Assembly (NCBI GenBank): GCA_002781365.1 | Contig: PETN01000099.1 | Location: 1-49,306, forward strand | Source: Sulfurimonas sp. CG01_land_8_20_14_3_00_36_23 | GTDB lineage: Bacteria; Campylobacterota; Campylobacteria; Campylobacterales; Sulfurimonadaceae | Direction: 5' to 3' | DNA length: 49,306 bases | Shown here: in pieces, positions 8,990 through 21,230 of the stretch | How the letters are laid out: every line of letters starts with the position of its first letter | Position numbering within the stretch: the stretch's first letter is position 1 | Made by a program: the position numbers and the translations under genes | Notes under the pieces: generated by a model | Databases searched by the model: none | What the model was told of the DNA's origin: nothing | What the model saw: only the letters and a program-made list of their open reading frames with translations

Positions 8990-9440
8990 AGTAACGCATA
9001 ATCCTTTTCCAATCTAAATCAAAGTTTTTTTCCACATAGCTTTTGGCATGTGGAATGTGGCAGTTTGAGCAATCTTGGTGGATGGTATCGCCGTAGATGC
9101 TCTGTGCTCCCTCTTTTGAATCTATCGCGCAGAAACTCTTTTGCATCTTTTTCTCAACCTCTTTTACCCCTTTGTCATTAAACCTAAAGTGAGGGCAGGC
9201 ACACAAGTAGCAACTTAGATAAGCTATATCATGGCACTTTTTATTCTCTGCATATAAAAGGCAGAAGTTAGGTTCACTCTTCACCATGTTTTCAAATCTG
9301 AAATACTCAATAATCTCCTCTTTGCTTTTTCCAGATGTGCCCTGAGCGTTAGCGAGGAGATGCCCTTGGGGTGCCAATAATTTTTCTATAATCTTTTTAT
9401 GTTTGAGCGCATGTGCATCAAACCATTGTATATAAGTCAT
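8961..9440 (-). CDS. Cysteine-rich conserved protein of unknown function
   Basis: 159 residues, not assigned to a family. It has many Cys and His residues: FCLLYAENKKCH, SCYLCACPHF, SFCAID, and DCSNCHIPH, which includes one CxxCH. There is no signal sequence, so metal or Fe-S binding in the cytoplasm is more likely than haem c. Its start overlaps the stop of the membrane-protein gene by four bases (ATGA), so the two should be translated together. Its 3' end overlaps the convergent GGDEF gene by 29 bp. Residues about 22-35 (LAPQGHLLANAQGT) are encoded by the 42-bp repeat at 9336-9377. Without them the protein would read through IIEKL-SGKSKEEIIEYF, a smooth helix. Motif copy at 9045-9055. Confidence 0.7.
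   Translation of the reverse strand: MTYIQWFDAHALKHKKIIEKLLAPQGHLLANAQGTSGKSKEEIIEYFRFENMVKSEPNFCLLYAENKKCHDIAYLSCYLCACPHFRFNDKGVKEVEKKMQKSFCAIDSKEGAQSIYGDTIHQDCSNCHIPHAKSYVEKNFDLDWKRIMRYSIVNPAHSI
9336..9377 (+). repeat. 42-bp GC-rich intragenic repeat, copy 2
   Basis: Reverse complement of 5336-5377 with one mismatch. Both host genes are on the minus strand, but the element has the opposite orientation in each, so different peptides are encoded. Its length of 14 codons keeps this reading frame open. No similar sequence was seen elsewhere in the window. Confidence 0.8.
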
Positions 9441-10012
9441 GATTCTCGCCTAAAAGATTTGAGAAGAAAATAGATGATAAGCAGTTGAACACTTAAGAGT
9501 AAAAAGTAGATTGTGTAGACTTGCGCCTGTTTATCTAAAAGAGGGAGCCAGTTTTCAAGCACTTTATAGAAGCTAAAAGAGAGGAGCATACCAGCGAGAT
9601 AGCCCACCTGTTTTGCAACATCTACCTTCTCTAAAAAGATAGCTCGCCTCAAAAAAAGAGTCTCGGCTCGGATGAGGTAGGAACCAAAAGCAAAAGTGAG
9701 TTGATACCCAGTGTAGAGAATGAGCGCACTCATGTAGCTATAGGAAAAAATCAAAAACCAAAAAATCATCGCCAATGCCACAAACTCTACAAGAAGTGAT
9801 ATTTTGTAGAAGTAGTGCATATTTAAAATCTTGTAGTAAAACTTCGCCACAAGAAGCATACTCATAGCGAGTAAAATCCCGCCAAGACTGTAAACAGAGG
9901 GCTCAATAGGTTCATAAATAGTAAAAATAGTCCCAACAGAAACCCCTAAAAAAAGAGAGTTTAAAAATTTGTATTTTATAAAGTTGCGAATATCGAGTTT
10001 TAATTTTTTCAT
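9437..10012 (-). CDS. Integral membrane protein of unknown function
   Basis: 191 residues with about six predicted membrane helices (for example LFLGVSVGTIFTIY, SLGGILLAMSMLLVAKFYY, LVEFVALAMIFWFLIFSYS, YTIYFLLLSVQLLIIYFLL) and short charged loops. I recognise no family. The ATG overlaps the hsdR stop by one base (TAATG), and the gene overlaps the Cys-rich gene by four bases. All three are therefore probably translated from one message. Whether it serves restriction or only shares the transcript is unknown. Confidence 0.7.
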   Translation of the reverse strand: MKKLKLDIRNFIKYKFLNSLFLGVSVGTIFTIYEPIEPSVYSLGGILLAMSMLLVAKFYYKILNMHYFYKISLLVEFVALAMIFWFLIFSYSYMSALILYTGYQLTFAFGSYLIRAETLFLRRAIFLEKVDVAKQVGYLAGMLLSFSFYKVLENWLPLLDKQAQVYTIYFLLLSVQLLIIYFLLKSFRRES

Positions 10013-12345
10013 TAGGCAGCTTTTTGCATATAAAGATATTTTTGAAACTCTATGAAGAGTGAACTAATGCCTGCAACATCACCTAAAATCTCTTTCGCAT
10101 CTTCTAACGACTGGTATTTATTTGTAAGTAAAATAGGGAGTTTTTCTTGTGAGAGCTCTTCCACGCCTGTTTCTATGTACTGACTCAGTACAAACTCTAT
10201 AAACTCTTTTTGTTTCTCGTTAAGCAGTGCTAAAATCGTTGTTTTGGCATCATTTACTCTTGCCTCTCTGCTTATCGGTTTTACATCGCCGTTAAAAACA
10301 TACTCCAAAACATCAAACAAATCACTTTGCTCTGCATTTACAAGTTTTTTAAGAGTGTTTAGTTCCTCTTTACCAAAGCCTGCCTCATCTAGTTTTTCAA
10401 GCAGAGTTTTTCGTGTAAGCGGATGACTCCAAAGTGTTCTCAGCTCCTCTTCGCTTGTAAAGAATTTTGGCAGTTCCCCAAAGAGATTTTGTAAAAATTC
10501 ATCTGCAGAAATAGGTTTGCCGTCGGCGCTCCAAAAAGAGGTGCTCATCATATGCTCTATTTCAAGCTCTTTGCCGTTTTTGAGTTTTACTTTTACTTTT
10601 TGTTTTTTTTCACGCGCTTCTTTTGGCTCTTTTGGTTCAGTCGGCTCTTTCTCTTCTTTTGGTTTTTTAGGCTCAATTGGTTCAGCTTCTATCGGCTCTC
10701 CATCCCACTCAGGGTCTAAAAATCGCTGATACGCATCCACAAAATCATAAATCGTAAAAAACTCTTTCCCATCAAATAACCTTGTTCCACGCCCGACTAT
10801 CTGTTTAAACTCTATCATCTGTTTTACTGGTCGCAGGAGAACAATGTTACGAATATTTCTAGCATCAACACCCGTTGAGAGTTTTTGAGAAGTGCTTAAA
10901 ACAGTTGGGATGAGTTTTTCATTGTCTTGAAACTCTCGCAAAAACTGTTCGCCTATTTCACCGTCATTTGCGGTTACTCTCACGCAGTAATTGGCATCTT
11001 TGCTCTGCTTTTTGTTTTGGTTTACTATGTCACGAATGAGAGCTGCATGTTCTTGCGTGGCACAAAAAATGATGGTTTTTTCATTCTCATTTGCCTCATT
11101 CATAAAAATTCTTACCCGCTTCTCTTCTCTGGCTTTTATCTCAATGATTTTGTTAAAATCTTCCTCTTTATAGAGTTTTCCCTCTTCGATTTCACCCTCT
11201 ATGATGTTGTCATCGCTGGTAAAAATGTAGTCATCCAGTGTTGTCTTAATTCGCTTCACTTTAAAAGGTGTCAAAAAGCCGTCATTAATTCCCTCTTTGA
11301 GTGAGTAAACATAAACCGGTTCACCAAAATAGGCGTAAGTATCGACATTGTCTTTTCTCTTTGGTGTGGCTGTCAAGCCCAACTGAACCGCAGGTGAAAA
11401 ATACTCCAAAATCGCTCTCCAATTTCCCTCATCGTTCGCACCGCCACGATGGCACTCATCGATGATGATAAAATCAAAATAGTCTGGCGGATATGCACCA
11501 AAGTAGGGTTCACTCTCACCGCTCTCATCTGTCCCTCTCATAAATGACTGAAAAATCGTAAAAAAGATGCTTCCGTTTGTAGGAACTTTTTTACTTTTTT
11601 TTATCTCTTTTGGTTTTATGCGAACAAGTGCATCTTCGGGAAAAGCAGAAAAGGAGTTAAAGGCTTGGTCGGCTAAAATGTTTCTATCTGCCAAAAATAA
11701 GATTCTGGGTCGTCTTTGCCCATCTCGCTTGAGATTCCAGCGTGTGTGAAAAAGTTTCCATGCTATTTGAAAGGCTATGGCTGTTTTTCCTGTTCCTGTT
11801 GCTAGAGTAAGAAGAATGCGGTTTTGGTTTTTGGCTACTGCTTCGAGTGTATTTTTGACCGCTATCTCTTGATAGTAACGAGGTTGCCAAGTTCCGCTTT
11901 TGCTCTCGTAGGGTACAGAGCTAAATCTGTCTCTCCACTCATTTTGGTCGGAGTAGGTCTTTTCCCAAAGTTCAACGGGAGTTAAAAAGTTCTCTACTAG
12001 TTCTTCTCTGCCAGATTTGAGACAAATACTATAAATCTCTTTTCCGTTTGTAGAGTAAGTCGTCTCAAGTTGTAGTTTTTGTGCGTAAAGTTTGGCTTGT
12101 GCCACGCCCTCACTCACTTCAAGCTCATCACTTTTGGCTTCAATGACAGCGAGTTTTACACCTTTGTACACCAAAATATAATCAGCGATGAGCGGTTTAG
12201 CTCTTCCACCGCCTACTTGAATACGCCCGTCAGTTATGCGACAAACATCTCGCTCTCGAAGCACTTTAGAATCAGGAACTACGCCCCATCCACATGCCAA
12301 GAGTTTTGGGTCTATAAGTTCGGCTCTTGTTTCTGATTCATTCAT
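10012..12345 (-). CDS. hsdR: Type I restriction enzyme R subunit (EcoEI-like)
   Basis: This 777-residue motor/nuclease subunit translocates and cuts unmodified DNA. The N-terminus has a PD-(D/E)xK nuclease site (ADYILVYKG then VIEAKS, about residues 50-70). Superfamily 2 helicase motifs follow: Walker A TGTGKT (about 180), motif II DECHRGG (about 295), and motif VI GRGTRL (about 517). An EcoEI-type C-terminal domain mediates assembly with HsdM/HsdS. A Pro-Glu-Lys linker at about 545-585 (repeated EPKEPKE-like units) separates motor and C-terminal domain. The gene lies 35 bp after doc and is the last classical gene of the RM operon. The motif is present at 12289-12298. All key residues look intact. 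Confidence 0.95.
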   Translation of the reverse strand: MNESETRAELIDPKLLACGWGVVPDSKVLRERDVCRITDGRIQVGGGRAKPLIADYILVYKGVKLAVIEAKSDELEVSEGVAQAKLYAQKLQLETTYSTNGKEIYSICLKSGREELVENFLTPVELWEKTYSDQNEWRDRFSSVPYESKSGTWQPRYYQEIAVKNTLEAVAKNQNRILLTLATGTGKTAIAFQIAWKLFHTRWNLKRDGQRRPRILFLADRNILADQAFNSFSAFPEDALVRIKPKEIKKSKKVPTNGSIFFTIFQSFMRGTDESGESEPYFGAYPPDYFDFIIIDECHRGGANDEGNWRAILEYFSPAVQLGLTATPKRKDNVDTYAYFGEPVYVYSLKEGINDGFLTPFKVKRIKTTLDDYIFTSDDNIIEGEIEEGKLYKEEDFNKIIEIKAREEKRVRIFMNEANENEKTIIFCATQEHAALIRDIVNQNKKQSKDANYCVRVTANDGEIGEQFLREFQDNEKLIPTVLSTSQKLSTGVDARNIRNIVLLRPVKQMIEFKQIVGRGTRLFDGKEFFTIYDFVDAYQRFLDPEWDGEPIEAEPIEPKKPKEEKEPTEPKEPKEAREKKQKVKVKLKNGKELEIEHMMSTSFWSADGKPISADEFLQNLFGELPKFFTSEEELRTLWSHPLTRKTLLEKLDEAGFGKEELNTLKKLVNAEQSDLFDVLEYVFNGDVKPISREARVNDAKTTILALLNEKQKEFIEFVLSQYIETGVEELSQEKLPILLTNKYQSLEDAKEILGDVAGISSLFIEFQKYLYMQKAA

Positions 12346-12380
12346 TTTTATTTCCTAAATCTTGATGAGATATTTTGTTG

Positions 12381-12830
12381 TTACAAATCACTAAATCCCC
12401 CAACAGCTTCAAATATTCTCAGTTTTACAGACTCACTAAATTCATCATCTTCAATGATAGATTTTATAATATCAAAGAGTAAATCATCTTTTATTTTCCC
12501 CTCGGCAAGCCAAACAACTATCTCTTCCATCTCTAAAATAAATTTATTGACACAGTAGTCATAACCGTTGAGTTCTAAAAAGTAGGCTCCCAAAACCAAG
12601 CTTGATCTTTTGTTTCCATCGCTAAAGGGGTGAAACTTATTGACAGCAATGACAAGATGTTTTAATTTTTCTTCAAATGTCGGATAATAGTCATCGTTTT
12701 GTATATGCTCCAATGCACTATCCAAAAGTCCTATTTCTCTATAACCGTGCAAACCGCCACTCTTATCTATAATCCAATCATGAACTTCAATAGCGTGTTT
12801 GGTGTCGAAATAGAATATTTGAAGTTCCAT
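12381..12830 (-). CDS. Doc/Fic-family toxin
   Basis: 149 residues. The Fic/Doc core HPFSDGNKRSS at residues 67-77 contains the catalytic His and the phosphate-binding GNKR. The short length, KHAIEVHDWII start and GLLDSALEHIQ helix fit the death-on-curing (Doc) branch. That branch phosphorylates elongation factor Tu rather than AMPylating. No inhibitory (S/T)xxxE(G/N) helix is evident within it, so a partner antitoxin is expected. The upstream HTH gene ends in TAATG over this start, so the pair is translationally coupled. It sits in the type I RM operon just before hsdR. The exact modification is inferred from the family. Confidence 0.85.
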   Translation of the reverse strand: MELQIFYFDTKHAIEVHDWIIDKSGGLHGYREIGLLDSALEHIQNDDYYPTFEEKLKHLVIAVNKFHPFSDGNKRSSLVLGAYFLELNGYDYCVNKFILEMEEIVVWLAEGKIKDDLLFDIIKSIIEDDEFSESVKLRIFEAVGGFSDL

Positions 12831-13843
12831 TATCTGTCTTTAAGTCTTTTTAAGACATCTAAAGTTTCAGGGTCTGACAATCGCTCTTCCAAAGATTTGC
12901 TAGTTTCTCCCAAAAATTTGTCAAAATCCCCTTGAGGAACAGACTGTATATAGCTCTCTAGTTTATGATGCAGAGCATCTCTAAAACACAAATCACGACT
13001 AGCCATTTTGGCTCTGGCATCGCTTATATGTGGCAACAAATATGGATTTTGTGAAGCTTTTTGTATCAAAGTCTCTAGCTCTGTCGTTGTGAGCTTTCTG
13101 CCTAGTCTCTCAAACTCTTGTTGCATCTCTACCGCTAACCCATGTTCAAAACTAGAGATGGCATTCAGCACTTCGGCATACATTGTTTCTCTGATTTTAT
13201 CTTTCTCTTTTAAATCCAATATTTTCTTATATTCAGCTGCATTCTCTAAAAAAATTACTTCATATATTTTATTTGTATATTTGCCGTACTTCCATTTATC
13301 GGCTTGTAAATAGTTGTCAAGTGCATCTGTAAACTCTTTTCTATAACTATACTCTTTATAAGCGGAGGGCAAATATGCTTCATCTCTTTGGTTAATATAT
13401 TTTGTATGTCCGCCTGATTTTTGAGCCATGACATCTATGACAATATCGAGTATCTTACTTCTTATGGCTTTTGCTTTTTCACTTTCAGTGACAAGCATAG
13501 CAATATTTAAAACTGTTCTAAAAGAAAATACCCCTAGAGAGGGAGCTTTAGCTATGTCGACGACATCAATGTCGTCGACATAATTTTTGAAATCTTTTAA
13601 CTCTTTACCTTTTAGGATTCTATAGCCATTTTTACTAAGTTCTTCTTTATTGCTCTCTAAATATCTATCAATAGTCCGTTCATCTATCTCTAAAATTTCA
13701 GCAACTTGCGTCTTTGTAAAGAGAGCTTCATCATGCCAATATATACCGCCCAAAGATAAGTTTGACTCAATCTGCTCTAGTGCATAATTATTATTTAAAA
13801 TATTTTGTCTGCTAAGTGTTGATGAAGTTAAATCTTTTGTCAT
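12830..13843 (-). CDS. HTH DNA-binding protein, likely antitoxin/regulator partner of Doc
   Basis: 337 residues. A helix-turn-helix is visible near residues 45-65 (TKTQVAEILEIDERTIDRYL). A RhuM/ORF6N-like segment follows (FSFRTVLNIAMLVTESEKAKAIRSKILDIV), then a helical C-terminus. Large HTH proteins of this kind are common directly before Fic/Doc genes in type I RM loci. Function as antitoxin and autorepressor is inferred from its position. It is the first gene after a promoter with the palindrome TTTTATATAAAA (13859-13870). The same promoter precedes mntA. The start is supported by AAGG eight bases upstream and by conservation of that spacing in the other copy. Confidence 0.65.
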   Translation of the reverse strand: MTKDLTSSTLSRQNILNNNYALEQIESNLSLGGIYWHDEALFTKTQVAEILEIDERTIDRYLESNKEELSKNGYRILKGKELKDFKNYVDDIDVVDIAKAPSLGVFSFRTVLNIAMLVTESEKAKAIRSKILDIVIDVMAQKSGGHTKYINQRDEAYLPSAYKEYSYRKEFTDALDNYLQADKWKYGKYTNKIYEVIFLENAAEYKKILDLKEKDKIRETMYAEVLNAISSFEHGLAVEMQQEFERLGRKLTTTELETLIQKASQNPYLLPHISDARAKMASRDLCFRDALHHKLESYIQSVPQGDFDKFLGETSKSLEERLSDPETLDVLKRLKDR

Positions 13844-13858
13844 GCTTTCTTACCTTGG

Positions 13859-13877
13859 TTTTATATAAAATATTATA
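13859..13877 (-). promoter_or_regulatory. Promoter and operator-like palindrome before the HTH-doc pair
   Basis: On the minus strand, TATAAT (13877-13872) is followed by the perfect 12-bp palindrome TTTTATATAAAA (13870-13859). AAGG and the ATG come next. A palindrome overlapping the expected transcription start is a typical autorepressor site of a toxin-antitoxin operon. Not experimentally shown. Confidence 0.5.
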
Positions 13878-13897
13878 TCGCAATTGAAAACTACTCT

Positions 13898-13930
13898 CAT
13901 CTCTCTTGTAAAGGCTTTTTCTAAGATGAT
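13898..13930 (-). pseudogene. Relic of an hsdS 3' end
   Basis: Directly after the dinD-like stop, the minus strand reads IILEKAFTREM. The intact hsdS ends SILQKAFNGELI and then continues with the same ATGAGAGTAGTT sequence. ILEKAFxGEL is a common HsdS ending. The relic lacks about six bases and the stop codon. It marks an earlier hsdS-to-antitoxin junction. Confidence 0.6.
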
Positions 13931-13931
13931 T

Positions 13932-14795
13932 TCATTCATTGTCTTCATCCAGTTCAAGTAAATTACTCTTTGGCAAAAAGTTCTTTTGTGTGCTAAGGGG
14001 TCTGCCTAGCTCTTTTTCTGTTTGTACCCTTGCATCTCCAGCAACTTTTCCGCCTCTTGAGGCTATCTTTTTGCTTTTGTCAAAGGTGTCGGGTTTTTCT
14101 TCTTTGGAGATTTCAGTCGTGACTCTCTCACCCAACATGGAGAAGATAAGTTCCAAATCGTCCATGTGGTCACGAAGATTTGTATTTGATTTTTGCGGTA
14201 AGTTTTTGTGATTTTTGTATTCGTTTGGAGTCATTCCAAAGGTGGCTTTTGAGATTTCAGCCGTTAAAATCGCAAAATCACGATGTTCCGATATGCCTCT
14301 CTCCCTCCATTCATCTGTAAGGTTTTGGCGAATGGCGATTCCGCGGAGCCGTTTGTCTATCCAATCTTTAGGATACCCTTTTTGTTCATAAAGAGTTTTC
14401 ATCCGCTCTTGTGCAAGTTCTGGGTCTTCTATCTCTTGGATTCGTTCATGCCCGACTTGAGCCAGCCACTGTTTAAAAGGTTCCGCTTTTTTGGATGGGA
14501 TGGATTGGATAAGGCGAAAAATATCTTTAGTATTTCCTGCTAAAATTTTTCTTTTTTTCCCTGTTTGCGTTGACATCTCTACCTGGGGACAATTTGTCCC
14601 TAGGTAGCTTCCAAGCTCTTCATCTCTTTTACGGGTTTTTTTGAGATAATCAGTAGCATTGGCACTATCGGTTAATGCCTCAACTATATCAACCAAAGAG
14701 TAATACCACTCATCTTCATGCCAAGCTCTACGAATCTCTTTATTTTGAAAGATTACTAGTTTATTTGAAGTCATTTCTGATATTGACTTTTCCAT
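13932..14795 (-). CDS. DinD-like / BRO-N domain protein
   Basis: 287 residues. The N-terminus (IFQNKEIRRAWHEDEWYYSLVDIVEALTDS) is a BRO-N-type DNA-binding domain as in phage antirepressors. The middle and C-terminus (FAILTAEISKATFGMTPNEYKNHK and GGKVAGDARVQTEKELGRPLSTQKNF) match the DinD (DNA damage-inducible protein D) family. E. coli DinD inhibits RecA filament activities. A role here in guarding against DNA damage caused by restriction is only an idea. It follows the GHKL gene after three bases, so is co-transcribed with it, and abuts the hsdS relic. Confidence 0.75.
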   Translation of the reverse strand: MEKSISEMTSNKLVIFQNKEIRRAWHEDEWYYSLVDIVEALTDSANATDYLKKTRKRDEELGSYLGTNCPQVEMSTQTGKKRKILAGNTKDIFRLIQSIPSKKAEPFKQWLAQVGHERIQEIEDPELAQERMKTLYEQKGYPKDWIDKRLRGIAIRQNLTDEWRERGISEHRDFAILTAEISKATFGMTPNEYKNHKNLPQKSNTNLRDHMDDLELIFSMLGERVTTEISKEEKPDTFDKSKKIASRGGKVAGDARVQTEKELGRPLSTQKNFLPKSNLLELDEDNE

Positions 14796-14798
14796 TAG

Positions 14799-16934
14799 TT
14801 AATGTCCTTCTAGTTTATCAATGAAAATTTTATTTCTTAGTTTAGCTCGTTTTAAAAGAGTGGAATATTTTATTACTTCTGTATAAATTGAACCATTTGT
14901 TTTATCATCAAACCCAATTACATTTTCAGATGGTCTAAACCAGTAGTCAAAATGGTATGAATGTTCAAACCTACTTACTCGTCCTCTTACATCTCTGTCT
15001 TCTATATTTTCACCTATTAGGTAGCCGTAGAATGTTGTAATTTGAAATTTATCAGTTGTATAATTTCTAATTAAATTTGCATAAAAATCCACTTGACTTA
15101 AATGTTCGGAAACATTAACATCTGGAGCTTTAAATTCAATGATGATACATTTCCCCTCTTGTGGAAAAAGAAGTACATCAGGTCTTTTATCAAGTCTTTT
15201 TTCTCCTAGAGAATTTAAATATTTATTCTCTTCTTCTGTAAATTCTTTTTTAAATATCTTTTCCCCATCAATTTCTATTTGACAGAGGCGTTTTTCTGAA
15301 AATCCTCTAAAATAAATGAAAGTTTCTTCAATTAGCCATAAATCACTACTTTCTGGATTGTCTGAACTTTGTTGAAAAATAAGATTGTGCATTATATCTT
15401 CATCTATTCTTCCACCTTTTTTTAACTCTTCTAACTGTTTTTCAAGGATTTTATCAAATAAATCCAGTACAAGTTTACGCCTCGCAACATATTGAGTTAA
15501 GGCTGTTCTGTTTTGGATAGGTATTAATTTGACAAATTCATCAACTTGTAAACTGAGCTTGGCTTTGTAGTCTTTTTCTGTTGTATTTAATTCTTCTAAT
15601 TTTTTGATTTGTTGCTTAATATTGGCATCGCCATCAGCTTTTATCTTAGCATCAACCTCATAAACTTTTCGTAGGATTGTAGAGTCGCTGTCATTGATAT
15701 TTATCTTTTTTCTTAAAGACGATATTATTTTAGGGTCGAGCAAAAACATTTTTTGAAGCTCTTGGATACCTCTCATTTTTTCATCATTTTTTTGCTGTAT
15801 TTCTATATACAAGTTATCAATGACATTGTTGATTTTATCTTCAATATCCTCTAGTAAGATTTCTTCATCATGAAATAGTGAATCAATATTTTTTTTCTTA
15901 AAATCTTCTTTTGTAGAAATGTTTATATCACCTCTTGTATCACTATCTCTATCATCTATGTATTTGCCAGAAGCTAAAAATAAATATCGATTATCATCAA
16001 TAGCATCTTTTGGAAGCAAACTGTATAGTTTAATATCTTTTGCTATCTCCCCTTTACTTATAAGAATAAGAGCATTTTTATCCAGTTTTTCTTTAGAAAT
16101 TTTAAAAGCTTTTAAATGTAGAGTCTCTTTATTTGATGTACGCTCAATTTTAGAGTTATTGAATTGACTGTAATATATATCAATTAGCTGTTCTTTTTCT
16201 GGAATCGGAATGTCATCAGAAATAATTTCTAGTTCATTCTCTATTTTATCGTCTATCGTTCTTCTGATAATAATTTGTGGTAATGAATTTCTATTTTCAC
16301 AGAATCTTGCCATATAATGAAAAATTAAATCTTCTTTGATAGTTTCAGTTGTTAAGTTTGAAAAGTATATTGCATCTTTTTCTAATAATATATCTTTAAA
16401 AACTAATTGGGTAGAAGAATGAGTAGCTTCCGTCTCTTCTTCCTCCTCTAGTCGTATGATTGCATTTCGAGTTAAAAATTCTGTTGACTTAGAAAGTGTA
16501 AATATTCGTTTTTTAAAACCTGTTTTAGAACTTGGATCATTGTAGATAGTTGTAAATTCTGTTGTATCAAATGTATGCAAAAATTGGATTCGACCAGTTC
16601 CTTTATTTGAGTATCCTTTTCTATTGTCTTTTAAATTTATGAACCTTTCAAACTCTTTATCATTAAAGCCAATTCCTATGTCTGATATTTCAATTTTTTG
16701 AAAATCGTATTGCCCTGTTTGTTCGGAAAGCAGTTTTGTTGTCAGAAAAAGATTTATAACAATTTTACCTTTTTCAGTAGATGAGTTTTGTTCTTTTAAA
16801 ATATTGATTGATTCCAAAGAGTTTGTAAAAGCTTCAAATACAGGCTGTAAAGGAGTATCATCTTTTTTTCTAATATCTCGCAGCGCATTATCATACCAAA
16901 TACCAATAACTTCTATATATTTATGCTCATTCAT
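14799..16934 (-). CDS. GHKL (Hsp90/MutL-like) ATPase fused to a PD-(D/E)xK-type nuclease domain
   Basis: 711 residues. The N-terminal third has the GHKL ATP-binding motifs: N-box EAFTNSLE (34-41), DIGIGF (about 82-87), and a glycine-rich NKGTGRIQF (about 109-117). The middle (about 390-510) is a charged coiled coil. The C-terminus shows RPDVLLF...IIIEFKAP, with D586, E600 and K602 placed as in PD-(D/E)xK nucleases, followed by a QVDFYANLIRNY helix. GHKL ATPases joined to nucleases have been described in bacterial restriction neighbourhoods as relatives of MORC proteins (Iyer, Abhiman and Aravind 2008). A DNA-sensing and cutting defence role is inferred. Its ATG directly follows the hepT stop, with no spacer. 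I recognise no named defence system that matches. Confidence 0.75.
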   Translation of the reverse strand: MNEHKYIEVIGIWYDNALRDIRKKDDTPLQPVFEAFTNSLESINILKEQNSSTEKGKIVINLFLTTKLLSEQTGQYDFQKIEISDIGIGFNDKEFERFINLKDNRKGYSNKGTGRIQFLHTFDTTEFTTIYNDPSSKTGFKKRIFTLSKSTEFLTRNAIIRLEEEEETEATHSSTQLVFKDILLEKDAIYFSNLTTETIKEDLIFHYMARFCENRNSLPQIIIRRTIDDKIENELEIISDDIPIPEKEQLIDIYYSQFNNSKIERTSNKETLHLKAFKISKEKLDKNALILISKGEIAKDIKLYSLLPKDAIDDNRYLFLASGKYIDDRDSDTRGDINISTKEDFKKKNIDSLFHDEEILLEDIEDKINNVIDNLYIEIQQKNDEKMRGIQELQKMFLLDPKIISSLRKKININDSDSTILRKVYEVDAKIKADGDANIKQQIKKLEELNTTEKDYKAKLSLQVDEFVKLIPIQNRTALTQYVARRKLVLDLFDKILEKQLEELKKGGRIDEDIMHNLIFQQSSDNPESSDLWLIEETFIYFRGFSEKRLCQIEIDGEKIFKKEFTEEENKYLNSLGEKRLDKRPDVLLFPQEGKCIIIEFKAPDVNVSEHLSQVDFYANLIRNYTTDKFQITTFYGYLIGENIEDRDVRGRVSRFEHSYHFDYWFRPSENVIGFDDKTNGSIYTEVIKYSTLLKRAKLRNKIFIDKLEGH

Positions 16935-17315
16935 TTATTGTAATTCGTTTATCATTTGATTAATCACTTTTTGCAACTCTTCAAGCTTTGTGTCACAAAC
17001 AAAGTAAATCTCTGCTGCATCTATATCGAAGTAGTGGTGAGAAATAATATCTCTCATTCCCTTAGCGGCTTTCCAATCGATTTGAGGATATTTTAAAAGA
17101 AGTTTTTTGTTTGTGATTTTATCAATATTTTTTAAACTCTCCCCGATGGCGATTAAAACCATGCAGATGCTGTCAAGTTTTTCCATTCCCTCGGGTGTGT
17201 CGGTAAAGTAGGAAGCATCATTCACGACTTCAAATCTTTTTAATGCGACGCTTACGGCATTTGATATTTGGCTAAGTATCTCTACGACCAACTCTTTATC
17301 ATACATAAATAGCAT
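16935..17315 (-). CDS. hepT: HepT toxin (HEPN domain) of an MntA-HepT module
   Basis: 126 residues. The HEPN RNase signature Rx4HxY is intact at R88-H93-Y95 (RDIISHHYF). The all-helical fold and length match HepT. In studied systems HepT is an RNase that MntA silences by adding AMP to a tyrosine next to this motif; Y95 would be the target. It overlaps the end of mntA by 17 bp and is immediately followed by the GHKL gene. Confidence 0.88.
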   Translation of the reverse strand: MLFMYDKELVVEILSQISNAVSVALKRFEVVNDASYFTDTPEGMEKLDSICMVLIAIGESLKNIDKITNKKLLLKYPQIDWKAAKGMRDIISHHYFDIDAAEIYFVCDTKLEELQKVINQMINELQ

Positions 17316-17589
17316 CCTTCTCGATTCTTTTTTTAAGAAATGCGTTCATTTTATCTCTCACTCTCACAATATCAACAGGAGCAGATAAAAGCGTTTGGAG
17401 TTCATCTTTGATGTGAATTATCATAAACATATCAGGAGTTTTTGTTTTGATGCAGATATCTACATCGCTAGAAGAAGTCGCTTCGTCTCTTGCAACCGAA
17501 CCAAAAATTCCAAGTGCATCAATACCATATTTATCAAAATTTTCTTTTTTGTATTTTGCTAAAATCTGCAATACCGAATTTCTTTGCAT
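17299..17589 (-). CDS. mntA: MntA nucleotidyltransferase antitoxin
   Basis: 96 residues. A minimal nucleotidyltransferase with the motif GSx10DxD complete (G30-S31, D42, D44). It is expected to AMPylate and thereby neutralise HepT. It is first in its cassette. The start at 17589 has AAGG eight bases upstream, and a TATAAT/palindrome promoter in front that is nearly the same as that of the HTH-doc pair. Confidence 0.9.
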   Translation of the reverse strand: MQRNSVLQILAKYKKENFDKYGIDALGIFGSVARDEATSSSDVDICIKTKTPDMFMIIHIKDELQTLLSAPVDIVRVRDKMNAFLKKRIEKDAIYV

Positions 17590-17680
17590 ACTTTACTACC
17601 TTAATTTTATATAAAATATTATATCACACTTGAGAACTACTCTCATATCAATTCTCCATTAAAAGCTTTTTGCAGGATTG
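17587..17680 (-). repeat. Direct repeat R2: hsdS 3' end plus palindromic promoter
   Basis: Second copy of the repeat at 13841-13930. It contains the last codons of the intact hsdS (SILQKAFNGELI), the shared ATGAGAGTAGTT block, a TATAAT, the palindrome and the mntA start codon. The spacing from the shared ATGAGAG to the start codon is identical in both copies. Confidence 0.8.
17605..17623 (-). promoter_or_regulatory. Promoter and operator-like palindrome before mntA-hepT
   Basis: On the minus strand, TGATATAAT (an extended -10 with TATAAT at 17623-17618) is followed by TTTTATATAAAA (17616-17605), part of a 14-bp perfect palindrome. The same element precedes the HTH-doc pair, so one repressor could control both. 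Confidence 0.55.
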
Positions 17681-18800
17681 ATTTTTTGAGTTCGTCTAGG
17701 TTTATGATTTTTTGTTCGTAGATTTTTTCTAGGTTTTTGGTTTGTTCTGAGAGGGTGTCTAGTTTTTTTACTATTGTTTGTTGGTCGATTATGGATTTTG
17801 GAAAATATATTTCTATTTTTTTCAAAAGACTTGATTTTATTCCAAGAACTGTTGCACCTGTTCCACTGCTCAATATTTTAGTTCTAATCGGATTTGACAA
17901 AAGAAGATATTTTAAAAATGTTTGATTAACTTTATTTGGATTTGGTTGCATAACAATTATTCTTTGTGCAAAGGCTAATTTTTCAGTTGTGTTAATTTGT
18001 GCTACATTAGCCAATGGTGCTTCCGTAGTAAAAATTATATCACCAAAATTTGGAATACCTCTTGACATCCAAGATTCATAATTATCAGTAGCTATAAACT
18101 CTTGTGGTTCTAATTGTAGATAGCCAATTTTGACATTTTTAGCCGTTATTAATCTAACTCCACTTTCTGTTTTTACAGGTGTTCTACCCCTATAATCAAT
18201 CAATTTTATATGATTTTCAAGATTACATATTTCCCAATCTATAGTAGGATTCTCAAACACGCTTTGCAAATAGCTTTCAAAAAGTTCTTTGGCATGTGCA
18301 AGGTTGCGTTTGGCATTTTCTTTTGCCTTCTCTATCGCACCAAAAGCCTCATCTAAAATGGCTACTATTTTTTGTTGTTTTATTAAAGATTTTGGAAATA
18401 AAATTTGAATTGATTGAAGTTCAGATTTGACAAGACTTGGTATTGTTGTTCCTCTATTCATACTTTTGAAATCAATACCTAGGCATAGATAATAAACAAA
18501 CCTTTTATCCATGTCATTTTCGTTTTTAGGATAAAGTCCAAATGCTGTATCTACATTCCAAAATTTTTCATTAATATAAATTGGTTTACTAATATTACCC
18601 TTTCGTCCAATAATTGTTGTTCCTGCATCACAAATATAATCAGTTGCATAGCCCATTACATTTCCTGCACTACCCATAATTTTATATTTGCCATTTTCGG
18701 ATAATACTAATTGTTGATTTTTCCCATTCTTTATTTCAATAATTTCCCCAAGCTTCCTAACTTCCCACCCCTTTCTTAAAGCTCTACCCACGAGATGCAC
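17643..18800 (-). CDS. hsdS: Type I restriction-modification specificity subunit
   Basis: 385 residues that recognise the DNA target for the RM complex. Two target-recognition domains are visible. The first begins GWEVRKLGEIIEIKNG and ends with a helical spacer (IKQQKIVAILDEAFGAIEKAKENAKRNL, about 140-170). The second begins DWEICNLENHIKL and ends with a similar spacer and SILQKAFNGELI. The two halves give a bipartite recognition site. The sequence itself cannot be predicted. The start overlaps the end of rhuM by 17 bp. A near copy of the dispersed motif (GGCATGTGCA) is at 18291-18300. Confidence 0.95.
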   Translation of the reverse strand: MHLVGRALRKGWEVRKLGEIIEIKNGKNQQLVLSENGKYKIMGSAGNVMGYATDYICDAGTTIIGRKGNISKPIYINEKFWNVDTAFGLYPKNENDMDKRFVYYLCLGIDFKSMNRGTTIPSLVKSELQSIQILFPKSLIKQQKIVAILDEAFGAIEKAKENAKRNLAHAKELFESYLQSVFENPTIDWEICNLENHIKLIDYRGRTPVKTESGVRLITAKNVKIGYLQLEPQEFIATDNYESWMSRGIPNFGDIIFTTEAPLANVAQINTTEKLAFAQRIIVMQPNPNKVNQTFLKYLLLSNPIRTKILSSGTGATVLGIKSSLLKKIEIYFPKSIIDQQTIVKKLDTLSEQTKNLEKIYEQKIINLDELKKSILQKAFNGELI

Positions 18801-19782
18801 CTAAAATATTTTTCAACTCTTCAAGCTCTTTTAGGTCGGTTTCTTTGGCTTCTTCTATTTTTCTTTTTGCATCAAACTCTGCGTAAATCTCTCTTACTTT
18901 TTCTTCCATTACGGCATGTGGAATTGTGCCGTTGCCTTTGAGGATTTTTTTGTCGTTAAAATCGAGCATTTTATCTATGTTTTCTCTCCAAAAGTTCATT
19001 GTTATGTCTTGCTTGTTTTTTACTCTTAGTTCTGCTGTTTCTAAAAAGATAACGACTAAACGGTTGAGCGTGTCTATCTCGTCTGCACTCAGATAGTTCT
19101 TGGCTATGGTTATATCCCCTTTACGGACAATAGAGCCTTTAAAAGATGTGAGTGCCATGTTCGGCTCATCTTTGGAAGCTCTTGAGAGTATGAGTTCTGC
19201 GGCGGTTTGGTCGGTCACTGCATAGATAAGTTTGTTCTGAGTTTCGGCAAAAAACATGTGCGTTGCTTTGTCTGTTTTGTCATAATCACTGCTGAGCATA
19301 AACAGATCTTTTACCTTTTGATAGAAGCGTTTTTCAGATGCGCGAATATCACGAATTCGTTCTAAAAGCTCATCAAAATAGTCCGTTCTTCCATCAGGAT
19401 TTTTGAGCCTCTCATCATCCATCACAAAACCTTTGACCATATACTCGCTCAGGTTTTTGTTTGCCCAGATTCTAAACTGTATGCCTCGTTTACTTTGTAC
19501 TTTAAAACCGATGGCTAAAATCATCTCAAGTGAGTAAAAAGCTACATTGTAATTCTTACCGTCAGAGGCAGTTGTTAAGTAATCCTTAACAACTGAATTG
19601 GCTTCTAATTCCCCATCTTTTAGGACTTTTGAGATGTGCATACTTATGTTTGGAACAGAGGTGGCAAAAAGTTCTGCCAACTGACTTTGGTTCATCCAAA
19701 CCATACCGTCTTTGGCATAAAGTGCTACGGAAGCTTTTCCGTCTGCCGTGTTATAGATGATGATGTTTTGCTCTTGGTTCAT
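18784..19782 (-). CDS. rhuM: RhuM family protein
   Basis: 332 residues, matching the RhuM family along its length. The segments seen are IIIYNTADGKASVALYAKDGMVWMNQSQLAELF, YNVAFYSLEMILAIGFKVQSKRGIQFRIWA and SFKGSIVRKGDITIAKNYL. It has an N-terminal helix-turn-helix-like region. RhuM was first noted on a Salmonella pathogenicity island, and its biochemical role is unknown. It is often found between hsdM and hsdS, as here. It overlaps hsdM by four bases (ATGA) and hsdS by 17, which implies co-translation. Contains one exact motif copy at 18913-18923. Confidence 0.88.
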   Translation of the reverse strand: MNQEQNIIIYNTADGKASVALYAKDGMVWMNQSQLAELFATSVPNISMHISKVLKDGELEANSVVKDYLTTASDGKNYNVAFYSLEMILAIGFKVQSKRGIQFRIWANKNLSEYMVKGFVMDDERLKNPDGRTDYFDELLERIRDIRASEKRFYQKVKDLFMLSSDYDKTDKATHMFFAETQNKLIYAVTDQTAAELILSRASKDEPNMALTSFKGSIVRKGDITIAKNYLSADEIDTLNRLVVIFLETAELRVKNKQDITMNFWRENIDKMLDFNDKKILKGNGTIPHAVMEEKVREIYAEFDAKRKIEEAKETDLKELEELKNILGASRG

Positions 19783-21230
19783 AACAGCTCTTTAATCGTT
19801 TTGAGAATAGCTTCACTCTCTTTATCTAGCTTTGCCATTGCTTTTAAAATCTCACTCGGTTCTCTGAGCGGTGCCTCTTCAGCTATATTTGGATTTTTTG
19901 CAGATAAATCGTAAGTTGTTTTGTCGATGTTTTTTAGGTCTAGCGTCCAAGAGTTTGCACTGTCGGCTTGTGTTTTTTGAAGCTCCACAAACTCACTCAA
20001 ATCTTTTTCGTTGAGCGGATTGGTTTTTCCTAAGTTTCTATCTAAGCTCAGTGAGTAAAACCACACTTTTTTTGTACTCATGCCTTTGTCAAAAAAGAGC
20101 ACGACGGTTTTTACACCTGCACCTGTAAAAGTCCCCGCAGGTAAATCTAAAACCGTGTGTAAGTTGCATGATGTGAGTAACTCACGACGCAAAGCAATCG
20201 AAGCGTTGTCGGTGTTGCTTAAAAAAGTGTTTTTTATAACAACTCCCGCTTTTCCGCCTGCTCTGAGTATTTTGATGAAATGCTGTAAAAACAAAGATGC
20301 GGTTTCGCCTGTTTTTATGGGGAAGTTTTGTTGCACTTCGGCACGCTCTTTGCCACCAAAAGGAGGGTTTGCCAAAACTACATCGTAGCGGTCTTTCTCC
20401 TGAATGTCTGCAATGTTTTCGGCAAGGGTATTTGTGTGAATGATGTTTGGTGCTTCGATGCCGTGGAGTATCATGTTCATAATGCCGATGATGTAGGCGA
20501 GTGATTTTTTCTCTTTGCCGTAAAAGGTGTTTTTTTGCAGAGTTGTTATGTCGTTGGTTGTAAGCTTTTTACTTTTTTTGAGATACTCAAAGGCTTCCAC
20601 CAAGAAGCCCGCAGAACCTACGGCACCGTCATAAATGGTTTCGCCTATTTTTGGGTTTACAACTTTTATGACTGTTTTTATGAGAGCTCTTGGTGTGTAG
20701 TATTCGCCACCGTTGCGCCCTGCATTTCCCATGTTTTTGATTTTGCTCTCGTACAAGTGGCTCATCTCATGTTTTTCTGCATGCGTTCTAAAGCGAAGTT
20801 CATCTATGTAGTTTATAACTTCCCGTAAGTTGTAACCGCTTTGGATTCTGTTTTTTAGTTCACTGAATATTTCACCGATTTTATACTCGATGGTGTCGGC
20901 ACTCACGGCATTTGCTTTGAATTTTTTAAAGTAGGGAAAGAGTTTGTTGTTTACAAAATCAGTGAGGTCGTCACCGCTGAGAGCATCATGGTCGAGTTTG
21001 CCATTTTCAAGTTTTGGAGCCGCCCAAACACTCCACTGAAATTCGGGTGCGATAATGGTTTGGTACGCATTACCGATAAGCTGTGCCGTCGTTTCTTTGT
21101 CTTTTTCTAAGTCGTCAAGGTATTTTAAAAACAAAACCCAAGAGGTCTGCTCGACATAGTCAAGCTCACTCCCGCATCCTGCATCTTTGTGGAGTAGGTC
21201 GTCTATATTTTTAAAAGTTTGTTCAAACAT
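19779..21230 (-). CDS. hsdM: Type I restriction-modification DNA adenine methylase subunit
   Basis: 483 residues. An N-terminal HsdM helical domain (LDDLEKDKETTAQ) precedes the N6-adenine methyltransferase domain. That domain has the SAM-binding motif YDGAVGSAGFL (about residue 200) and the catalytic motif NPPFGG (about 290). It methylates the host copy of the target site together with HsdS. It heads the locus. Upstream, an extended -10 (TGCTAAAAT) lies at 21272-21264 on this strand. No motif copy lies inside the gene. Confidence 0.95.
   Translation of the reverse strand: MFEQTFKNIDDLLHKDAGCGSELDYVEQTSWVLFLKYLDDLEKDKETTAQLIGNAYQTIIAPEFQWSVWAAPKLENGKLDHDALSGDDLTDFVNNKLFPYFKKFKANAVSADTIEYKIGEIFSELKNRIQSGYNLREVINYIDELRFRTHAEKHEMSHLYESKIKNMGNAGRNGGEYYTPRALIKTVIKVVNPKIGETIYDGAVGSAGFLVEAFEYLKKSKKLTTNDITTLQKNTFYGKEKKSLAYIIGIMNMILHGIEAPNIIHTNTLAENIADIQEKDRYDVVLANPPFGGKERAEVQQNFPIKTGETASLFLQHFIKILRAGGKAGVVIKNTFLSNTDNASIALRRELLTSCNLHTVLDLPAGTFTGAGVKTVVLFFDKGMSTKKVWFYSLSLDRNLGKTNPLNEKDLSEFVELQKTQADSANSWTLDLKNIDKTTYDLSAKNPNIAEEAPLREPSEILKAMAKLDKESEAILKTIKELL

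Follow-up and report, generated by a model that had tools for sequence, protein, structure and literature searches.

A GHKL ATPase–nuclease of paraMORC3 architecture, a candidate antiphage nuclease, encoded within a type I restriction-modification operon of Sulfurimonas

The window considered here, a stretch of 49,306 nucleotides from Sulfurimonas sp. CG01_land_8_20_14_3_00_36_23 (contig PETN01000099.1), carries on its minus strand a type I restriction-modification (RM) locus in which hsdM, hsdS and hsdR are all co-oriented (Table 1). In the order of transcription the genes encode HsdM, RhuM, HsdS, MntA, HepT, a GHKL ATPase–nuclease, a DinD-like protein, the PADLOC candidate PDC-M59A, Doc and HsdR, so that the ATPase–nuclease gene lies inside the hsdM-rhuM-hsdS-...-hsdR operon, where the initial annotation, made from the sequence alone, had placed it. 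MntA, HepT, Doc, HsdM and HsdR all retain their catalytic motifs. MntA and HepT form a complete type VII toxin–antitoxin tandem, comprising a GSx10DxD antitoxin and an Rx4HxY HEPN toxin, both of which score below the NCBIfam equivalog cut-offs. The successive spacings between mntA, hepT, the GHKL gene and dinD are -17, 0 and 3 bp, and the absence of any spacer behind hepT, also remarked upon earlier, is therefore exact. No Rfam match was obtained between window positions 9000 and 22000, and promoter-like and terminator-like sites were not above the number expected by chance.

Table 1. Positions in the window of the genes, protein domains and repeats of the RM locus
Feature	Position	Strand	Evidence
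HsdM, NPPF	19779..21230	-	PF02384 E 1.7e-61
RhuM family protein (PDC-S05)	18784..19782	-	Pfam; PADLOC
HsdS	17643..18800	-	PF01420
73-nt repeat copy 1, immediately following hsdS and preceding mntA, with a promoter-like extended -10 (TGATATAAT)	17577..17649	-	
Six-gene cargo insert (5.3 kb) at the hsdS/hsdR junction	12346..17642	.	not present in three same-genus genomes
MntA-like nucleotidyltransferase antitoxin, GSx10DxD	17299..17589	-	PF18765/PF01909; NCBIfam MntA below cut-off
HepT-like HEPN RNase toxin, RDIISHHY (Rx4HxY)	16935..17315	-	PF01934 E 2.4e-16
GHKL ATPase–PD-(D/E)xK nuclease fusion, paraMORC3 architecture, 711 aa	14799..16934	-	ORF; 84-homologue alignment; model pLDDT 87
GHKL ATP-binding domain, residues ~1-245 (E34, N38, D85, G87, G89, K106, G112, G114, R115, T175)	16200..16934	-	alignment; structure matches
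S5-fold/transducer domain, residues ~246-340	15915..16199	-	model strands; VIA alignments; conservation
Helical/coiled-coil region, residues ~341-505	15420..15914	-	secondary structure of model
PD-(D/E)xK nuclease domain, residues ~506-711 (E512, H516, D586, E600, K602, E686, R700 invariant)	14802..15419	-	alignment; C-terminal model
DinD-like Bro-N protein (PADLOC PDC-S13)	13932..14795	-	Pfam; PADLOC; NCBIfam
73-nt repeat copy 2 (82%), before PDC-M59A, preceded by ILEKAFTREM	13831..13903	-	
PADLOC candidate PDC-M59A	12830..13843	-	E 5e-100
Doc/Fic protein, PADLOC candidate PDC-M59B, HPFSDGNKR	12381..12830	-	Pfam; PADLOC; motif
HsdR	10012..12345	-	PF04851, PF08463

The fusion gene itself is real: a single open reading frame encoding 711 aa fills its interval exactly, while the plus strand of the same interval has stops throughout. 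The ATP-site motifs named in the initial annotation are present as EAFTNSLE (E34, N38), DIGIGF (D85, G87, G89) and KGTGRI (G112, G114, R115). A scan of species genome contigs with the single protein found no relatives; with an alignment as query 118 were found, of which the 80 best were retained. Across 84 aligned full-length homologues the ATP-site residues are invariant, apart from one masked residue each at E34 and N38, and so are D586, E600 and K602, the three residues that had been read as a C-terminal nuclease pattern. K106, R486, E512, H516, W533, S546, Y618, F635, E686 and R700 are likewise invariant, and E512, situated in the helix that precedes the other three acidic and basic residues, completes an E-D-ExK pattern. 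Lysine K294 of the S5/transducer domain, kept in 77 of the 84, is a candidate for contact with phosphate. Part of the conservation of residues 635-641 is due to the search itself, because the segment FYGYLIG seeded the scan that fetched most of the homologues; the seed left out the ATP-site and nuclease residues. Conservation of such depth, as read from the alignment, is not chance. The Pfam HATPase models reach five of 11 aligned homologues and do not reach the window protein.

An AlphaFold2 model of the full protein, built with 68 sequences, has a mean pLDDT of 87. Its N-terminal half, containing the ATPase and the transducer, matches SMCHD1, MutL and Hsp90 in Foldseek (E down to 3e-10), and gives VIA Z-scores of 15.7-17.3 against Hsp90/TRAP1, SMCHD1 and MORC3, in keeping with the Hsp90/MutL type of ATP site proposed for it. 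The VIA alignments to MORC3, SMCHD1, Hsp90 and TRAP1 run on to residue ~375-390, and the model thus points to an S5 domain following GHKL. Residues 361-505 are predicted to be helical, with two long helices at 417-447 and 456-505, which is compatible with the long coiled coil suggested previously. The C-terminal 208 residues, folded separately (pLDDT 82), have a nuclease-like fold, and the top VIA rows are mostly PD-(D/E)xK nucleases: the Shedu nuclease domain 8ti9 (Z 6.5, 133 residues aligned, rmsd 4.0), EndoMS/NucS (Z 6.5 and 6.4) and R.BspD6I2 (Z 6.1), then MspJI, AspBHI and McrBC. Because the Z-scores are modest and tied, and Foldseek used alone gives no significant match for this domain (best E 0.22), it takes the fold group and the invariant E-D-ExK together to support the nuclease assignment. 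Searches of PDB sequences, by phmmer with the protein and by hmmsearch with profiles A1 or A5, gave no convincing relative.

This combination of domains recalls paraMORC3, a family predicted in 2008 by Iyer, Abhiman and Aravind (PMC2292703) and characterised by GHKL, S5 and a C-terminal RE-fold with E-D-ExK. The window protein has an N-terminal GHKL domain with all the ATP motifs intact, an S5 domain after it and an RE-fold bearing E-D-ExK, and it is of the paraMORC3 type; the assignment is by architecture, judged against the published description of the family. Its family occurs mainly in Bacteroidota and Proteobacteria, as paraMORC3 does mainly in Proteobacteria and Bacteroidetes (PMC2292703), and shares with paraMORC3 the lack of the MORC-specific S5 motif GhXhhpXXRhl. 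Prokaryotic MORC proteins have GHKL and S5 in common with the window family, but that motif was found in none of the 84 homologues, and membership of MORC is thereby ruled out. A further difference lies in the genomic setting: a subset of the nuclease-bearing paraMORC3 genes was described as standalone, lacking conserved neighbours and possibly having another function (PMC2292703), whereas the subclade of the window protein is repeatedly embedded in RM operons.

One remote relative has been studied experimentally. VcSduA of Vibrio cholerae is a GHKL-nuclease with antiphage activity, which is abolished by either E27A or K557A; it protects at all tested multiplicities, without collapse of the culture, and the authors of that study tied it both to paraMORC3 and to the Shedu family (PMC12137116). 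Here VcSduA itself was compared by description, and profiles were compared with a VcSduA-like set made up of L097, a protein that passes SduA_C, together with plasmid and phage relatives, among them a protein of the P2-like phage PhiR44_1 annotated as ParaMORC3. In hhalign the window family matched this set collinearly over the full length (97.9%, E 5e-13, 16% identity), and the nuclease region alone gave 93.8%, while an HsdR N-terminal control gave 13%. The HsdR N-terminal domain was accordingly rejected as the nearest relative of the nuclease, despite a weak Pfam HSDR_N match to the window protein (E 0.0015). The resemblance to VcSduA, a GHKL-Shedu of type I-D, and to PhiR44_1 ParaMORC3 extends to domain order and catalytic residues. 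On the other hand identity to the VcSduA-like group is only ~16%, and the window protein does not match SduA_C (DUF4263) at the Pfam cut-off, which is why it is not filed here as Shedu; one of 11 homologues matched at E 0.15, and PhiR44_1 ParaMORC3 likewise falls below the cut-off (E 0.001). Neither PADLOC 2.0 nor NCBIfam gives the GHKL protein a name. The earlier statement, which matched the gene set to no named defence system, was incomplete in leaving out its family, a known one with an antiphage remote relative. The two groups also differ in their surroundings: a DNA cytosine methyltransferase gene adjoins nine of the ten L097-like relatives fetched (L098-L107, from plasmids and phage PhiR44_1) and only 2/71 neighbours of the window family, which suggests that in the L097/VcSduA-like group GHKL-nuclease and methyltransferase form a two-gene module.

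The boundaries of the inserted DNA at the locus can be drawn by comparison within the genus. Homology to genome G433 covers hsdM-rhuM and the conserved parts of hsdS as far as window position 17650 and resumes at 12345, so that the six genes between represent an insertion at the hsdS/hsdR junction. In G433, as in G414 and G282, hsdS runs into hsdR with a 4-bp overlap and no gene intervenes, and in a fourth genome of the genus, G434, the junction is occupied by a HicAB toxin–antitoxin pair (L133:4597-5203). The GHKL gene is AT-rich (GC 28.5%, GC3 18%), similar in this to hsdS (31%/20%) and unlike hsdM (41%/43%) and hsdR (40%/35%). Within the insert a 73-nt sequence with a promoter-like extended -10 is repeated directly, ahead of two blocks of cargo, its copies 82% identical overall and 93% identical over a 42-nt core; as the genome has no more than two clear copies and the insert holds both, it is not a widespread genomic element. 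The peptide ILEKAFTREM ahead of the second copy resembles the HsdS C-terminus ILQKAFNGEL and is possibly an HsdS remnant. The insert may therefore have grown in at least two steps, a newer hsdS-mntA-hepT-GHKL-dinD block having recombined in front of an older hsdS tail followed by PDC-M59A and doc. Other type I RM operons carry embedded defence genes, DarTG2, TgvAB and RloF among them ("guilt by embedding"; PMC12255303, PMC11411939). The insertion site between hsdS and hsdR and its variability among relatives are the same there, but the cargo genes are others, and the available text of these two reports describes no paraMORC3 at hsdS/hsdR.

The initial annotation had gone further and proposed that the ten genes constitute one guarded system, in which HepT or Doc halts growth once restriction or the ATPase–nuclease fails. 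All the parts do have intact motifs, and mntA, hepT, the GHKL gene and dinD are tightly packed behind a common promoter-like repeat. Nevertheless a relative of MntA-HepT was found beside none of 90 homologous loci, bearing in mind that short toxin genes diverge fast and distant pairs could be missed, and DinD beside one, so that MntA-HepT and DinD look like separate cargo; within the genus the insert is absent or replaced by HicAB, and at two of the homologous loci, L020 and L038, GHKL is the sole gene between hsdS and hsdR. Moreover, MntA neutralises HepT by adenylylating it (PMC7641770, available text), and a third guard is thus not needed. We regard the guarded system as very improbable, and the co-occurrence of GHKL, toxins and DinD is better explained by the piling up of cargo at an hsdS/hsdR hotspot. 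What survives of the earlier interpretation is the fusion, its position in the RM operon and the link of its homologues to defence genes; the unnamed family and the guarded set do not. Of the two findings named in advance as counting against it, a C-terminus lacking a nuclease fold and homologues unconnected with defence genes, neither was made.

The GHKL-nuclease gene is rare in the phylum, being present in 3/397 genomes; no relative of the window protein was found in phage records, and megablast of plasmids with the whole operon gave no match. Such patchiness, together with the cargo-like insertion, weighs against a role in MutL-like genome maintenance, in which the protein would protect the host chromosome or mend breaks made by its own RM enzyme and would not be antiphage. 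The order of GHKL, S5 and nuclease is indeed that of the MutL/MORC relatives, and the best folds for the nuclease, which are tied, include the mismatch endonuclease NucS/EndoMS, but the neighbours of the homologues are defence genes and not repair genes, and we consider such a role improbable.

Of ~54 close homologues, 12, from several phyla, have type I RM genes next to them; at an assumed background of 5% the binomial probability of 12/54 is ~1e-5, several of the loci being near relatives of one another, and that of 8/54 is 0.005. The order hsdM-hsdS-GHKL-hsdR is seen in L020 and L038, hsdS-GmrSD-GHKL-hsdR in L069, and hsdR-GHKL-Fic-hsdM in L051, a Sulfurovum; the remaining type I-adjacent loci are L019, L022-L025, L044, L047 and L071. 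Type III genes provide the context in L018 (mod-GHKL-res) and in L063 and L066 (GHKL-mod-res). Elsewhere a homologue adjoins a C5 methylase with McrBC-like genes (L033) or with McrC-like/LlaJI-like genes (L055, L061, L062), a TOTE primase-helicase (L054) or an Eco57I-type methylase (L017). In a maximum-likelihood tree the window protein belongs to a supported group of 18-19 rows that are for the most part RM-adjacent and come from Campylobacterota, Bacteroidota, Pseudomonadota, Thermodesulfobacteriota, Spirochaetota and Bacillota; Auribacterota join in the next wider set (support 91). For most of the remaining family members no RM gene was detected nearby, many having none within 10 kb. Embedding in RM operons (type I) or adjacency to RM genes (type II, type III, TOTE) is thus recurrent and concentrated in one subclade spanning several phyla.

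Given this distribution, the protein might be an accessory nuclease coupled to the RM enzyme of its host operon, loading on the DNA ends or stalled translocation products which that enzyme leaves, degrading them and blocking repair of restricted phage DNA; any type of RM enzyme that makes ends would serve. The occurrence of the window subclade and its close relatives inside or beside type I, type III, C5-methylase/McrBC-like and TOTE operons fits this, as do the gaps of only a few bases between GHKL and RM genes, which suggest co-translation, and the activation of the Shedu protein EcSduA by DNA ends, which it senses (review PMC12904381). Against it, many homologues are solitary, no single RM partner is conserved, and RM-embedded defence genes can act alone, as TgvAB does according to the available text (PMC11411939). 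We judge such coupling possible, though on the unlikely side. A more general version, in which the paraMORC3 subclade is a plug-in whose ATP-driven clamp-nuclease recognises the products of RM machines that are unrelated to one another (types I, II, III and TOTE) and carries out a second restriction step by destroying the DNA they have cut, is doubtful and is offered as speculation. At one type III locus (L018:8007-14778) mod and res flank the GHKL-nuclease gene directly, with gaps of 11 and -1 bp.

The gene at the hsdS/hsdR junction probably encodes a single-gene, DNA-targeting, ATP-gated antiphage nuclease of the paraMORC3 type, carried as interchangeable cargo of the type I RM operon. The architecture modelled as GHKL, S5 and PD-(D/E)xK, the invariant E34/N38/DxGxG/GxGR and E512-D586-E600xK602 sites, the modular insertion of an AT-rich gene into a junction that is empty or otherwise filled in the genus, and the repeated embedding in RM loci (type I in 12 of ~54) all support this. 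The full-length match to the VcSduA-like set adds to it, VcSduA having the same architecture and needing both sites for antiphage activity (PMC12137116). By analogy with the GHKL superfamily, ATP binding would pair two subunits through their GHKL domains, and the transducer and coiled-coil regions would then close round DNA like a MutL/MORC clamp. Closure would position or unlock the C-terminal nuclease, which would cleave the DNA of an invader, such as phage DNA that is linear or bears ends, and hydrolysis would reset the protein and spare the host. The example of VcSduA likewise suggests that phage DNA is the target and that HepT and Doc are not required. Set against autonomous action are the distance of the subfamily from the VcSduA-like group in sequence and its position below the SduA_C cut-off, together with the description of nuclease-bearing paraMORC3 genes as ones that stand alone and may have another function (PMC2292703); the strong RM association in the window subclade means that dependence on RM would fit too.

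The window protein belongs to a family known from prediction, of which one distant relative has been tested by experiment, and the embedding of defence genes at hsdS/hsdR has been described before (PMC12255303, PMC11411939). Three points are new: the RM-embedding subclade that crosses RM types, the same-genus empty sites that delimit the insert, and the promoter-like repeat marking the blocks within it. A branch of the paraMORC ATPases that had been predicted but not characterised, and that travels as cargo in several types of RM operon, thereby gains a concrete and testable role. Should it depend on the RM enzyme of its host, restriction would be linked directly to clamps of the MutL/MORC kind, the eukaryotic relatives of which act on chromatin; if it is autonomous, the GHKL-nuclease defence group so far known from VcSduA would be widened. 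The variable hsdS/hsdR junction also offers a practical place to search for new defence genes in the genus.

Four further loci deserve mention. In Sulfurovum FS08-3 (L012:8997-13585; G177) the GHKL-nuclease gene stands between two DUF1016/YhcG-type genes beside a ribosomal protein operon, with no RM gene nearby, and in Sphingobacterium sp. T2 (L071:7084-9189) it is split into two frames inside hsdS-hsdR, through either pseudogene formation or sequencing error. The second type I RM locus of the Sulfurimonas genome (contig C22, L135:4918-10553) carries genes for a zeta-toxin-like protein, Abi_2 and a YobI-type ATPase between hsdR and hsdM. In another genome of the same genus (L136; G356), a DinD-like fragment followed by decayed pieces of hsdR is apparently a ruined copy of the same operon.
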